A stretch of 64,000 nt of DNA from NCBI RefSeq assembly GCF_015644665.1, contig NZ_JADOBQ010000001.1, positions 806,001-870,000 of the forward strand, in the 5' to 3' direction. The notes under the pieces were generated by a model. That model was not told the origin of the DNA. It saw only the letters and a list, made by a program, of their open reading frames with translations, and did not search any database. The position numbers were made by a program, and so were the translations under genes. Below, in pieces: positions 43,091 through 48,674 of the stretch. This DNA is from Roseobacter sp. MH60115 (lineage in GTDB: Bacteria; Pseudomonadota; Alphaproteobacteria; Rhodobacterales; Rhodobacteraceae). Each line of letters starts with the position of its first letter. Positions within the stretch are counted from its first letter, which is position 1.

Positions 43091-45124
43091 TTAGATGGCG
43101 ATTTTACCGCCACCCTGTTTGGTCACCACGACAACCGACGGACGCGGCGGCATGGATGGGTCGAAGTCGGGCCAGCGTGTCGCTGGATCCTCAAACGTGG
43201 AATTCCGTTCGAAGCCTTTGAAGTCCTTGGTCCCGTCCGTGCCGGGGTGCTGAACCGCGAGGAACAGCGTCTCGCCGCTGTCGTGGAAGTAGGGACCGCA
43301 GAGCTCGCCCCCCACAGGGCAGCGGAAGAAGAGCTTGGAGTGCCCGCGCAGGTCTCCGTCCGTCTCCAGCGAATACAACCCGTCGGATTTGCCGGTCTTG
43401 CCCCAGCCGGAGCCCTGATCGGTCGAGATCCAGAGACGGCCATCCGCGTCGAACGCGCAGTTGTCGGGGGACCCGAACCAGCCGTTTTCGGAGGTTTCCG
43501 GGTTCCACTGTGCGCCGACCTCTTCGATGGTCGGATCGCCGCATTTCACCAGGATCGACCAGGTGCCCGTGGTGGCCGCGTGGTCTCCGCCGTCCTCTTT
43601 GATCTCGATGATGTGACCAAAGGAGGACTCGGGCCGCGGGTTGGCCGCGTTCACCTGATCGGCTGTCCGACGGGTGTTGTTGGTCAGCATGATATAGGCG
43701 GTGCCGTTCGGGCCCGGCTGCGCGTCCTCGGGGCGGTCCATCGGCGTCGCACCCAACAGGTCGGCGGCAATGCGGGTGTCGATCATCACATCCGCCTGGC
43801 TGTTGAACCCGTTCTCCGCCGTCAACGGGCCTTCCCCATGCACCAGAGGCAGCCATGCCACGGTGCCATCCGCGTCGAACCGTGCCACGTATAGCGTGCC
43901 GTCGGACATCAGCGGGCTGCCGAACACAGCGTTTTCATCCGTCACCGTGCCGCCAGAGACGTATTTGTATTGGTAGTCAAAGCGGTTGTCGTCGCCCGAG
44001 TAGATCACCAGCTTGCCGCTTGACGAAATGGTGGTTTCCGCGCCTTCGTGACGGAAGCGGCCAAGCGCCGTGTGTTTGATCGGTGCCGCATCGGGGTTGC
44101 GCGGGTCGACCTCGACAATCCAGCCCCAGCGGTTGGGCTCATTCGGTTCCTTGTCGATGTTCCAGCGGTCGTGGTACTGGCCCCATGCGTACCAGCGGCC
44201 CGGCACGCCGTAACGCTTCATATTGGCGGCTTCCGGCTGGGCGGAAATGTCCGGCTTGTCCTCGCCGTCCACCACATCGGTCCAGAAATAGCCGTGGAAG
44301 TTCTCCTCGGCCATCAGATAGGTCCCCCAGGGCGTCATTCCGCCCGCACAGTTGTTCACCGTGCCAATCACCGTCATGCCTTCGGGGTCCGCGTTGGTCT
44401 TCATCCGGGTGTGACCGGCGGCGGGGCCGTCGATGGTCATCTCGGTATTCAGCGGCGTGATCCGGCGGTTGTATGCGCTGTCACGCACCAGTGCCCATTT
44501 GCCGTCGTCACCCTGCGCAATCTCGACTACCGAGCCGCCGTGCGCGGCCATCTCGATGTCGACCAATTCCTTGGTCATGCCGGTGAACCCATCGCGGTCC
44601 TGACGGCCGAGACCGGGGAACATGACCTCTTCGTTGGTGTACTCGTGGTTGACGCAGAGCAGCCCGCGCGTGCCTTCGTCATTCAGCGCGGTAAAGCCCA
44701 CGTAGTCGTTGTTGTAGCCGAACTGCTGCAATTGCGCCTCGGCGGTCTGGTTCATCACGTCGAACTCGGGCGCATCGGCGGTGATCGGATCGCCCCAGCG
44801 CAGCAGGATATCGGCGTTGTACCCTTCGGCGATATGATGCTTTTCGTCGTTGCCCCAAGTCAGCTCTTCGAAGTTGTAGCGGCCCGTGGCATGGCCTGCG
44901 GCGGTCGCCTGCCGCGGCGCAATCATCGCTGACGTCCCAAAGAGCGCGGTTGTCGCAGACACGCCCAGCATGCCCTTGAGCATGTCGCGGCGGCCATAGC
45001 GGCTGTTGATCACATCGCCGATCGTGCGGCTCAGATTTGGGTTTGTCGGAATGTCGTCGTAGGCCTCATAGGCTTCCGCTTTGTTTCCGTGCTCCGGGTC
45101 ATTGATGATATCTTTGCGGTTCAT
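43091..45124 (-). CDS. phoX: PhoX-family alkaline phosphatase, Tat-exported
   Basis: A 677-residue PhoX-like (DUF839) phosphatase, a calcium/iron enzyme that releases phosphate from organic esters in the periplasm. The twin-arginine motif YGRRDMLKG (Arg45, Arg46) followed by a hydrophobic stretch (TTALFGTSAMIAP) marks Tat export; the signal is preceded by about 40 extra residues, as is common in this family. Landmarks include YNFEELTWGN, VNHEYTNEEVMF, NNCAGGMTPWGTYLMAEEN and VYSGDDNRFDY-like segments. A GAGGAAG ribosome site precedes ATG 45124. Phosphate control through PhoB is expected for the family; a weak Pho-box-like repeat lies upstream. Confidence 0.93.
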   Translation of the reverse strand: MNRKDIINDPEHGNKAEAYEAYDDIPTNPNLSRTIGDVINSRYGRRDMLKGMLGVSATTALFGTSAMIAPRQATAAGHATGRYNFEELTWGNDEKHHIAEGYNADILLRWGDPITADAPEFDVMNQTAEAQLQQFGYNNDYVGFTALNDEGTRGLLCVNHEYTNEEVMFPGLGRQDRDGFTGMTKELVDIEMAAHGGSVVEIAQGDDGKWALVRDSAYNRRITPLNTEMTIDGPAAGHTRMKTNADPEGMTVIGTVNNCAGGMTPWGTYLMAEENFHGYFWTDVVDGEDKPDISAQPEAANMKRYGVPGRWYAWGQYHDRWNIDKEPNEPNRWGWIVEVDPRNPDAAPIKHTALGRFRHEGAETTISSSGKLVIYSGDDNRFDYQYKYVSGGTVTDENAVFGSPLMSDGTLYVARFDADGTVAWLPLVHGEGPLTAENGFNSQADVMIDTRIAADLLGATPMDRPEDAQPGPNGTAYIMLTNNTRRTADQVNAANPRPESSFGHIIEIKEDGGDHAATTGTWSILVKCGDPTIEEVGAQWNPETSENGWFGSPDNCAFDADGRLWISTDQGSGWGKTGKSDGLYSLETDGDLRGHSKLFFRCPVGGELCGPYFHDSGETLFLAVQHPGTDGTKDFKGFERNSTFEDPATRWPDFDPSMPPRPSVVVVTKQGGGKIAI

Positions 45125-45284: not shown

Positions 45285-46487
45285 TCAACCGAGCCGGGAA
45301 ATCAGCGCCGGGATATGCTTTTTGAACGGAAAAAACCCCTTGGTGGCCAAAGGCCAGGCCGCCGCGTCAAAAGCGCGCTGCAGACGCACCAGCGGTGGCG
45401 CCTCCGGATGCTTCTGCACCTGTGCCACCACATCGGCCACCGGCCCCACGGGCGCATAGGCGGTGACAATCTGTTGCAGGTTCTCACGCCGCGCCCAGTC
45501 GAGCACGCCGGCGACATCACCCAGCGGCTGGGACAGAACCCCCAGCTTGCCGGACCAGCGCGCGCAGGCATCCTCTGCCGCCTGCGCCCGGAAGGCCGCG
45601 ACGTGCGGAGCGGGCATCAGCGGGCTGACCCCGTTCGCCGGCGCCACCACGGCGCTGGCCACCGGAGACAGCTGCTCCAGAAGAAATCCCGGGCTGAGGT
45701 CATCGGCATGCAGCAAGACGCCCGTGCGCAGGCCGAGATCGACGGGGTCTTGGGCGGGCAGGCCGCGCGGGGCAGGCACGGGCGTTGCCGCGCGCGGCAC
45801 GGCGGTGGAGGCCAGCCCGGTCGGGCGAAACCGCCCTTCGGTGTATTTGGCGATGTTGTCGGCCCGCGCGAGATACGTCTTGCCGATGGTCTGTACCCCG
45901 GCCACCCAGCGCCAGCCCAGCGTGTTGGACGCCGGATCGCCATCCAGCAGATGCCGCAAAAAGAATTCCGCGCCCAGCTGCCACGGCAGCTCCAGCGTGA
46001 AAATCCAGATCGATGCAAACCACATCCGCGCGTGGTTGTGCAGATAGCCCGTCTCCACCAGCTCCCGCGCCCAGAAATCGAAACATGCAAACCCGGTCTG
46101 GCCGGTGCAGGCCGCTTCCCACCGCGTCCGCAGGCCGGACTGGGTCTGCAACTCGTCGATCTGCTGCCTCAAGTCCTGTTGATACTGTGCCCAGATCCCG
46201 GGGCGCAATTCCAGCCACCCTTTCCAATAGGTCCGCCAGAAGACCTCCTGCACGAATTTCTCCGCCGCCCTTGCCGAATGCCGCGCCAGCACCGCCTGCA
46301 AAACCTCCGCTTCGGTGATCAGCCGACAGCGCAGGTAGGGTGACAATGTCGAGACCCCCGCATGCCGCCCGGGGCCCAGATCATAGTTGCGTCGCGCGGC
46401 ATATTGCTGCCCGGCGCGCGGCAGGAAGTCGGCCAGTCTTTCCAGCGCTGCGGTGCGCGTGGGGGGGAAGGCAACAGAAGCGGTCAT
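45285..46487 (-). CDS. photolyase/cryptochrome-like flavoprotein with apparently permuted domains
   Basis: About 400 residues. The N-terminal half is a photolyase FAD-binding helical domain: STLSPYLRCRLI, FVQEVFWRTYWKGW, ETGYLHNHARMWFASIW, HLLDGDPASNTLGWRW. No alpha/beta antenna domain precedes it. Instead, the last 170 residues form an alpha/beta-like region (TGVLLHADDLSPGFLLEQL through ATKGFFPFKKHIP) that ends like the photolyase N-domain. This suggests swapped domain order (inference). ATG 46487 is preferred to a TTG at 46535. It may repair UV damage or sense light. It is co-directional with phoX. Confidence 0.8.
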   Translation of the reverse strand: MTASVAFPPTRTAALERLADFLPRAGQQYAARRNYDLGPGRHAGVSTLSPYLRCRLITEAEVLQAVLARHSARAAEKFVQEVFWRTYWKGWLELRPGIWAQYQQDLRQQIDELQTQSGLRTRWEAACTGQTGFACFDFWARELVETGYLHNHARMWFASIWIFTLELPWQLGAEFFLRHLLDGDPASNTLGWRWVAGVQTIGKTYLARADNIAKYTEGRFRPTGLASTAVPRAATPVPAPRGLPAQDPVDLGLRTGVLLHADDLSPGFLLEQLSPVASAVVAPANGVSPLMPAPHVAAFRAQAAEDACARWSGKLGVLSQPLGDVAGVLDWARRENLQQIVTAYAPVGPVADVVAQVQKHPEAPPLVRLQRAFDAAAWPLATKGFFPFKKHIPALISRLG

Positions 46488-46638: not shown

Positions 46639-47268
46639 ATGAAAGATCCCATCGACACCTATATGAATACGCTTGTGCCCATGGTGGTGGAGCAGACCAG
46701 CCGGGGCGAGCGTGCATATGATATCTTCTCGCGCCTTCTGAAAGAGCGGATCATCTTCCTCTCAGGCCCCGTGCACGACGGGATGTCGTCGCTGATCGTG
46801 GCCCAGCTGCTGCATCTTGAGGCGGAAAATCCGTCGAAGGAAATCAGCATGTACATCAATTCGCCGGGCGGCGTGGTCACCAGCGGTCTGTCGATCTACG
46901 ACACCATGCAATATATCAAGCCCAAGGTTTCCACATTGGTCATCGGGCAGGCAGCCTCCATGGGATCGCTGCTTTTGACAGCAGGTGAGGCCGGCATGCG
47001 GTTCTCTTTGCCGAACTCCCGCGTGATGGTGCACCAGCCCTCGGGCGGCTATCAGGGTCAGGCGACAGACATCATGATCCACGCGCAGGAAACCCAAAAG
47101 CTCAAGACGCGTCTGAATGAAATCTACGTGAAGCATACCGGGCAAACCCTTAAAAAGGTTGAAGAAGCGCTGGAGCGTGACAATTTCATGTCGCCGGAGG
47201 AGGCGAAAAAATGGGGTCTCATCGACGAGATCGTCGAGAGCCGCAACAAGGATGAGGACGACAGCTAA
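46639..47268 (+). CDS. clpP: ATP-dependent Clp protease proteolytic subunit
   Basis: A 209-residue serine protease with catalytic Ser107 (GQAASMGS), His132 (MVHQPSGG) and Asp181 (ERDNFMS). It forms the tetradecameric barrel that degrades proteins unfolded by ClpX. The start at ATG 46639 matches the mature-type N-terminus ([20 protein letters not shown]); an earlier in-frame ATG at 46582 is less likely. clpX follows after a 140-base gap, which contains a hairpin. Confidence 0.97.
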
Positions 47269-47350
47269 ACGTCACGCCGGACGCACAGTCAGTTTACCAT
47301 TTAGCGATTGTGGACCTGCCAGCGCTGGCCTAAGCTGCCATAAAGACAAC

Positions 47351-47378
47351 GCAGCACGCGTTACACGCCGCGTGCTGC
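47351..47378 (+). other. hairpin between clpP and clpX
   Basis: GCAGCACGCG (47351-47360) pairs perfectly with CGCGTGCTGC (47369-47378), loop of 8 bases. There is no T-run, so it may stabilise clpP mRNA or attenuate clpX. Confidence 0.5.
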
Positions 47379-47408
47379 CGGACACACGCAAGACCTGGAA
47401 GGGTTGAC

Positions 47409-48674
47409 ATGGCTACGAATTCAACGGGCGACAGCAAGAACACCCTTTATTGCAGCTTCTGCGGCAAGAGCCAGCATGAGGTGCGTAAGCTGATCGCCGG
47501 GCCAACCGTTTTCATCTGCGATGAATGCGTTGAGCTCTGCATGGATATCATCCGCGAGGAGACAAAAGCCTCCGGTCTCAAGGCCACGGATGGGGTGCCG
47601 ACACCCAAGGACATCTGCGAGGTGCTCGATGATTACGTGATCGGGCAGGCGATGGCCAAGCGGGTGCTCTCGGTTGCGGTGCACAACCACTACAAGCGGT
47701 TAAACCACGCCCAGAAGGGCGGCGACATCGAGTTGGCGAAATCCAACATCCTGCTGATCGGCCCCACGGGTTGCGGCAAGACGCTGCTGGCCCAGACACT
47801 GGCGCGCATTCTCGACGTGCCGTTCACCATGGCTGATGCGACCACGCTGACCGAGGCCGGTTATGTGGGCGAGGATGTCGAGAATATCATTCTCAAGCTG
47901 TTGCAGGCCTCGGAATACAACGTCGAACGGGCGCAGCGCGGCATCGTCTACATCGACGAGGTCGACAAGATCACGCGCAAGTCCGAAAACCCCTCGATCA
48001 CCCGCGATGTGTCGGGCGAGGGGGTGCAACAGGCGCTGTTGAAGCTGATGGAGGGCACCGTGGCCTCCGTACCGCCGCAGGGCGGGCGCAAGCATCCGCA
48101 GCAGGAATTCCTGCAGGTGGATACCACGAACATCCTCTTCATTTGTGGCGGTGCGTTCGCGGGCCTCGACAAGATCATCGCGGCGCGCGGCAAGGGCTCG
48201 GCCATGGGGTTCGGTGCTGACGTGCGCGACAACGACGAGCGCGGGGTGGGTGAGATTTTCACCGATCTCGAACCCGAGGATCTGCTGAAATTCGGTCTCA
48301 TCCCTGAATTCGTCGGTCGTCTGCCTGTTCTGGCGACGCTGGAAGATCTGGACGAAGACGCGCTGGTGACCATCCTGACCCAGCCCAAGAACGCGCTGGT
48401 CAAGCAGTATCAACGTCTCTTCGAACTGGAAGACACCACGCTTTCCTTCACCGAAGATGCGCTTTCGGCGATTGCCAAGCGCGCGATTGAGCGCAAAACC
48501 GGTGCCCGGGGTCTGCGGTCCATTCTGGAAGACATTCTGCTCGACACGATGTTCGACCTGCCCGGGTTGGAGAGCGTCACCGAAGTTGTGGTGAACGAAG
48601 AGGCGGTGGTCTCTGAGGCAGCACCGCTGATGATCCACGCGGACGCAGAGAAAGAACCGGCCAGCGCGGGCTGA
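47409..48674 (+). CDS. clpX: ATP-dependent Clp protease ATP-binding subunit ClpX
   Basis: A 421-residue AAA+ unfoldase. The N-terminal C4 zinc finger has Cys15, Cys18, Cys37 and Cys40; Walker A is GPTGCGKT (118-125); Walker B is VYIDEVD (180-186). Pore loop (TEAGYVGED) and RKHPQQEF loop are present. The ClpP-docking loop reads MGF instead of the usual IGF, a conservative change. It feeds tagged substrates to ClpP and is followed by a clear terminator. Confidence 0.98.

Follow-up and report, generated by a model that had tools for sequence, protein, structure and literature searches.

A probable NewPHL-type photolyase of Roseobacter with the FAD domain first and a C-terminal domain predicted to have the antenna-domain fold

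Roseobacter sp. MH60115 encodes a 400-residue photolyase in which the FAD-binding catalytic domain comes first and an α/β domain comes last, the reverse of the class I order. The gene lies on the minus strand of a 64,000-nucleotide stretch of contig NZ_JADOBQ010000001.1 (hereafter the window, to which all coordinates refer), at positions 45285–46487, with the ATG at 46487 and the stop codon at 45285–45287. In the encoded protein, a helical FAD/catalytic domain (residues 8–225; 45813–46466), delineated by Pfam, by phmmer against the Protein Data Bank (PDB), and by structural superposition, is followed by a variable linker (residues 226–252; 45732–45812) and by the C-terminal α/β domain (residues 253–400; 45288–45731), which was assigned the antenna-domain fold from a structural model, superposition, and an indirect profile link. 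Near its end, this domain contains a conserved segment with the consensus YDxxAWPHATxGFFxFKxxIP (residues 372–394; 45306–45374). We consider it highly probable that the protein is a photolyase of the NewPHL type, with photoreduction through two tryptophans, splitting of cyclobutane pyrimidine dimers (CPDs), a C-terminal domain serving as a lid, and a domain order that originated by a cut in the linker and re-joining of the halves. The architecture itself is known, inverted photolyase order having been stated in the passages of PMC9426592 and PMC13274461 that deal with this family.

The only Pfam family represented in the open reading frame (ORF) is FAD_binding_7 (residues 78–211; E = 2.4e-23; profile positions 1–131 of 203), and the matches to the NCBIfam photolyase models, far under the respective cut-offs, are confined to residues 5–224. 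Likewise, when the PDB was searched with phmmer (46 sequences), the catalytic half of class I photolyases aligned with about residues 8–205, as exemplified by 1tez, of which the catalytic half alone (residues 206–394) matched residues 8–197; there was no match beyond residue 257, so that no solved structure containing the C-terminal domain was found by sequence. Nothing precedes the catalytic half, in agreement with the preliminary description of this DNA, which had reported that no antenna domain stands ahead of the FAD domain, had assigned both FAD-binding motifs to the N-terminal half (they are located at residues 142–194), and had judged the C-terminal part to be of α/β type. The latter is borne out by a model of residues 228–400 built alone from 59 sequences (pLDDT 94.4; pTM 0.86).

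This order is widespread in other Rhodobacterales, as the search proposed in the preliminary description revealed. A scan of genome contigs yielded at least 578 relatives, of which the best 80, ranging from Rhodobacterales to Microbacteriaceae, were kept. One open frame extends from query residue 15 or earlier to residue 390 or later in 79 of these 80 loci, the exception (L075; residues 1–220) being situated at a contig end. Because the FAD-first order is held in a single frame in 79 of the best 80 loci, we rejected the possibility that a frameshift or truncation in an ordinary photolyase produced it as an artefact, although the best-scoring 80 of at least 578 relatives are a favorable sample for this purpose. 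Matches at E ≤ 4e-76 were found in 32 of 99 relative genomes and in 17 of 19 genomes of the genus, the genome of MH60115 being counted in both; one genome (G006) has the protein divided between two contigs, and the match in another (G066) is limited to residues 7–222. These matches, together with the full-length frame kept in 79 of the best 80 loci, indicate that the gene is not a chance ORF. A profile of the C-terminal domain searched against 200 genomes of the phylum matched in seven, in open frames of 379–457 residues. One genome (G024) carries two full-length family copies (C38:223288 and C42:207558), which share 52% and 47% identity with the query.

Both halves of the protein are predicted to resemble the two domains of class I photolyases. 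The full-length model, calculated from 60 aligned sequences (59 picked from the best 80 loci), has a mean pLDDT of 95.7 and a pTM of 0.92, the latter value meaning only that the domain placement is confident. Its FAD part (residues 1–231) superposes on residues 170–411 of the Thermus thermophilus photolyase 1iqr (Z = 16.3; rmsd 2.6; 211 aligned residues), and residues 253–400 of the C-terminal model superpose on residues 2–148 of the same structure (Z = 10.4; rmsd 2.8; 137 aligned residues; 17% identity) and, with similar scores, on PhrB (4dja; Z = 10.5; rmsd 3.0; 141 aligned residues). Thus, as the preliminary description had anticipated, the C-terminal half of the model does superpose on the photolyase α/β domain; given that the two halves match residues 170–411 and 2–148 of 1iqr, respectively, the protein would correspond to a photolyase that was cut in the linker and had its halves exchanged. 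The comparisons of models therefore support the conclusion that the C-terminal domain has the fold of the photolyase N-terminal (antenna) domain, with universal stress proteins as close structural rivals.

The main rival explanation, which we consider unlikely, is that the family gained its C-terminal domain independently, as a Rossmann-like domain of the universal stress protein kind that took over the role of a lid, so that no relocation of a photolyase domain took place. Against the C-terminal model, universal stress proteins have Z scores of up to 10.0, within one Z unit of the best photolyase score (10.6), and a universal stress protein ranks first in a Foldseek search with this domain, in which there were no matches at an E value of 0.001. 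Furthermore, sequence searches did not tie the domain directly to antenna domains: direct hhalign comparisons with those of class I photolyases gave 2.0% and 3.9–6.0%, that is, no detectable similarity; none of 59 C-terminal domains matched the Pfam family DNA_photolyase; and a PDB profile search with the C-terminal domain retrieved six sequences, none of them a photolyase (best E = 0.31). However, among the 50 superposition rows, 26 of the 28 photolyases and cryptochromes align to model residue 171 or beyond, whereas none of the 22 others passes residue 156. The stretch that separates photolyases from universal stress proteins in this manner includes GFFPFKKHIP. The preliminary description had noted the resemblance of this sequence to the way the photolyase N-terminal domain ends, and the superposition does place it in the part matched with that end.

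The independent acquisition of the domain is further disfavored by intermediates from a sister group. We assembled the α/β domains of 12 FAD-first relatives, split or fused, using the first 150 residues of each (alignment A6 holds the full-length domains). In hhalign, this bridge set matched 69 C-terminal domains of the NewPHL-type family over 131 columns (85.2% and 89.1% in the two directions) and 17 class I antenna domains over 135 columns (96.6%); these percentages are single-pair figures rather than database-search values, and the 66 controls, comprising six reversed-profile comparisons and 60 comparisons with 20 unrelated families, did not exceed 3.1%. In a Pfam scan of 11 of the 12 bridge-set domains (L141 was left out), DNA_photolyase was matched with E values of 2e-4 (L143), 7e-4 (L111), and 0.013–0.15 (four domains), five domains had no match, and none passed the curated cut-off of the family. 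The sequence link of the C-terminal domain to antenna domains is thus indirect, running through the sister-group intermediates alone; with this link and the superposition taken together, independent acquisition of the domain appears unlikely.

The distribution of conserved positions suggests what the C-terminal domain might do. Columns conserved at 90% or more are numerous in the FAD core (101 of 218) and in the final segment (9 of 23), but few in the α/β core (5 of 119) and absent from the linker (0 of 27). Conservation of the final segment over the α/β core leads us to favor an interface or lid, and not a pigment pocket, as the role of the C-terminal domain; it would pack on the catalytic domain and close the FAD site, and would not act mainly as an antenna. 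In the 2020 NewPHL study, this domain reportedly covers the FAD site, and NewPHL is reported there as a possible substitute for DASH proteins. The notion that the domain has kept a pigment after its move and now transfers energy to FAD from a different side is compatible with its antenna-domain fold, but the poor conservation of the α/β core speaks, if weakly, against it, and we regard this possibility as improbable. The proposal in the preliminary description that the rearrangement would change how an antenna pigment meets the flavin found no support; conservation is concentrated in the FAD domain and the final 23-residue segment.

The catalytic residues were read from 60 aligned family sequences and 8 class I sequences. 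The two positions aligned with the lesion-stacking tryptophans, W84 (46236–46238) and W194 (45906–45908), the asparagine near flavin N5, N188 (45924–45926), and the first and second tryptophans of the electron chain, W192 (45912–45914) and W169 (45981–45983), all encoded on the minus strand, are invariant in both sets (60/60 and 8/8). The place of the third (outer) tryptophan, which is tryptophan in all eight class I sequences, is occupied by T115 (46143–46145, minus strand); in the 60 family sequences, this site is T in 31, S in 7, A in 5, a gap in 5, one of various other residues in 12, and W in none. We take W84 and W194 to be equivalent to W277 and W384 of Escherichia coli photolyase, N188 to N378, and W192, W169, and the T115 site to W382, W359, and W306, respectively. 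On this basis, FAD held in the helical domain would be photoreduced via the two-tryptophan chain W192–W169, and the excited reduced flavin would then donate an electron to a CPD lodged between W84 and W194, resulting in splitting of the dimer. By analogy with published orthologs, the most likely substrate is a CPD in single-stranded DNA. That the protein is instead a cryptochrome-like photoreceptor is very improbable: the photolyase superfamily includes both kinds, and the genome already has two FAD_binding_7 proteins, namely this ORF and a 480-residue frame that best matches class I models, plus one DPRP protein, but both lesion-stacking tryptophans and the asparagine near N5 are invariant, and the NewPHLs described in the relevant parts of PMC9426592 and PMC13274461 repair CPDs.

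By its traits, that is, the inverted domain order and the tryptophan dyad, the ORF looks like a member of NewPHL, with which it was compared by published description, and it is a putative ortholog of the protein of Dinoroseobacter shibae. The founding description of NewPHL is reportedly that of Emmerich et al. (2020; doi 10.1093/nar/gkaa1147). Neither D. shibae A8LJA9 nor M. mesophilicum M7YZC8 figured in the best 80 loci of our scan. According to the respective passages of the literature, NewPHLs/SPLs repair CPDs in single-stranded DNA, have an inverted domain topology, and include D. shibae A8LJA9 (PMC13274461); the Prochlorococcus protein Phr7 consists of an N-terminal FAD domain and a C-terminal Z-domain, and for the Phr7 type, CPD photolyase activity on single-stranded DNA was shown in D. 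shibae and M. mesophilicum (PMC9426592); and the D. shibae NewPHL has the tryptophan dyad only (PMC8948257). The protein analyzed here shares with NewPHL the FAD domain at the N terminus, the other domain at the C terminus, and the dyad, and Rhodobacterales, the order of D. shibae, is also the order of most of our matches; no difference was found in this comparison of descriptions. The C-terminal part is named the Z-domain in the NewPHL literature, where the antenna-domain fold is not stated in the passages concerned (PMC9426592, PMC13274461).

Short photolyase-like proteins (SPL; Xu et al. 2021), treated with NewPHL as one group in the relevant part of PMC13274461, are described in passages of PMC9649867, PMC9498864, and PMC9178010 as being without the α/β domain. 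The ORF, in contrast, has this domain at its C terminus, and those FAD-only relatives that we examined carry it in the gene that follows. The adjacent phr4 and phr5 genes of Synechococcus and the fused phr6 of Cyanobium, as described in PMC9426592, resemble the ORF in that the FAD part comes first and the photolyase domain second, split or fused; unlike the NewPHL-type family, which has no such conserved set, Phr4 and Phr6 contain four Fe-S cysteines according to the same account. Finally, class I CPD photolyases (1owl, 1dnp, 1iqr) share both domain folds and the catalytic, lesion-stacking, and inner tryptophan residues with the ORF, but their α/β domain is N-terminal to the FAD domain, the third tryptophan is missing here, and FAD_binding_7 is matched only in part.

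The photolyase gene adjoins divergently oriented clpP and clpX genes (46639–48674, plus strand). Given that a clpX-like cluster is present in 34 and a clpP-like cluster in 33 of the best 80 of at least 578 loci (clusters named by eye), this gene order is probably old in Rhodobacterales. A functional link with clpPX was rejected as unproven, the adjacency being most simply explained as conserved gene order. On the other side, the downstream gene (43091–45124, minus strand) encodes a 677-residue protein with a twin-arginine-like start (SRYGRRDML), which is presumably PhoX/DUF839-like.

To place the inverted order in an evolutionary context, we examined FAD-first relatives outside the NewPHL-type family. 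In a class-wide sample of 240 genomes, the best 20 places were examined as loci, the sample, loci, and alignments all having been selected by similarity to the NewPHL-type ORF. Six of these 20 places contain an FAD-only gene of the FAD-first branch, and in all six, the next same-strand open frame encodes the α/β domain. The two frames overlap by four bases in L146, L150, and L151 and by eight bases in L147 and L148, and in L149 the ATG of the α/β gene lies 14 bases past the stop of the FAD gene. Deinococcus sp. QL22 (L143) has the same arrangement in two annotated genes that overlap by four bases, so that the adjacent downstream gene encodes the α/β domain in all seven FAD-only relatives examined (six overlapping, one at 14 bases). 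The two parts are combined in a single gene on three other Deinococcus plasmids and in one reading frame on two Persicobacter plasmids. Among 398 genomes of the phylum, a search at E = 1e-55 detected one split pair (G085), which was already in the set, and none further. Two other short frames (G093, 282 residues; G382, 279 residues) turned out to be ordinary class I catalytic parts cut by contig ends.

Several observations on individual loci may be recorded here. Lone photolyase-type α/β genes follow FAD-only genes in L143 (1666–2187), L133, L147–L150, and L132/L151, and the annotation of the QL22 gene reads "hypothetical protein". On one Persicobacter plasmid (L144, 2950–4524), the last part of the fused FAD-first gene is overlapped by another photolyase-superfamily frame. 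A further locus (L131, 715–3724, in G003) contains two overlapping photolyase-superfamily frames in the same direction, one class II-like (TIGR00591) and the other class I/DASH-like.

A phylogenetic tree of 62 FAD domains places all 44 FAD-first rows on one side of a branch with 100/98 support, where they are divided into the NewPHL-type family (32 rows; 100/98) and a sister group (12 rows; 96/90). The tree was built under LG+G4, without a mixture model, and does not tell which of the two domain orders came first; the position of two very long rows (L131) is uncertain, and class I does not form one clade, with L165 located outside. The direction of change between the split, fused, and ordinary orders is one that we infer. 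The order seen in the Roseobacter protein most likely originated when the linker between the domains was cut and the halves were joined again in reverse, perhaps via a two-gene stage. The circular permutation suggested in the preliminary description agrees with the domain order and the fold, but a gene split with later re-fusion accounts for both no less well. For the FAD-first branch as a whole, comprising NewPHL and its sister group, we tentatively suggest, as a possibility somewhat short of an even chance, that ordinary photolyases were split in the linker into adjacent, co-translated genes, FAD first and α/β second, which were then re-fused in reversed order, and that FAD-only "short" photolyases are one half of a two-gene enzyme rather than ancestors that had no such domain.

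In passages of PMC9649867 and PMC9498864, Xu et al. (2021) are cited for the proposal that all photolyases and cryptochromes descend from short photolyases. The presence of the α/β domain in the next gene of all seven FAD-only relatives speaks against short photolyases as ancestors that never had this domain. Taken alone, the Roseobacter protein is one more member, from a marine bacterium, of a described family, and the bearing of the analysis on the origin of NewPHL and on the split gene pairs is weightier: if the C-terminal domain is a relocated antenna domain, and if FAD-only relatives keep it next door, the proposal of a short-photolyase ancestor becomes directly testable.
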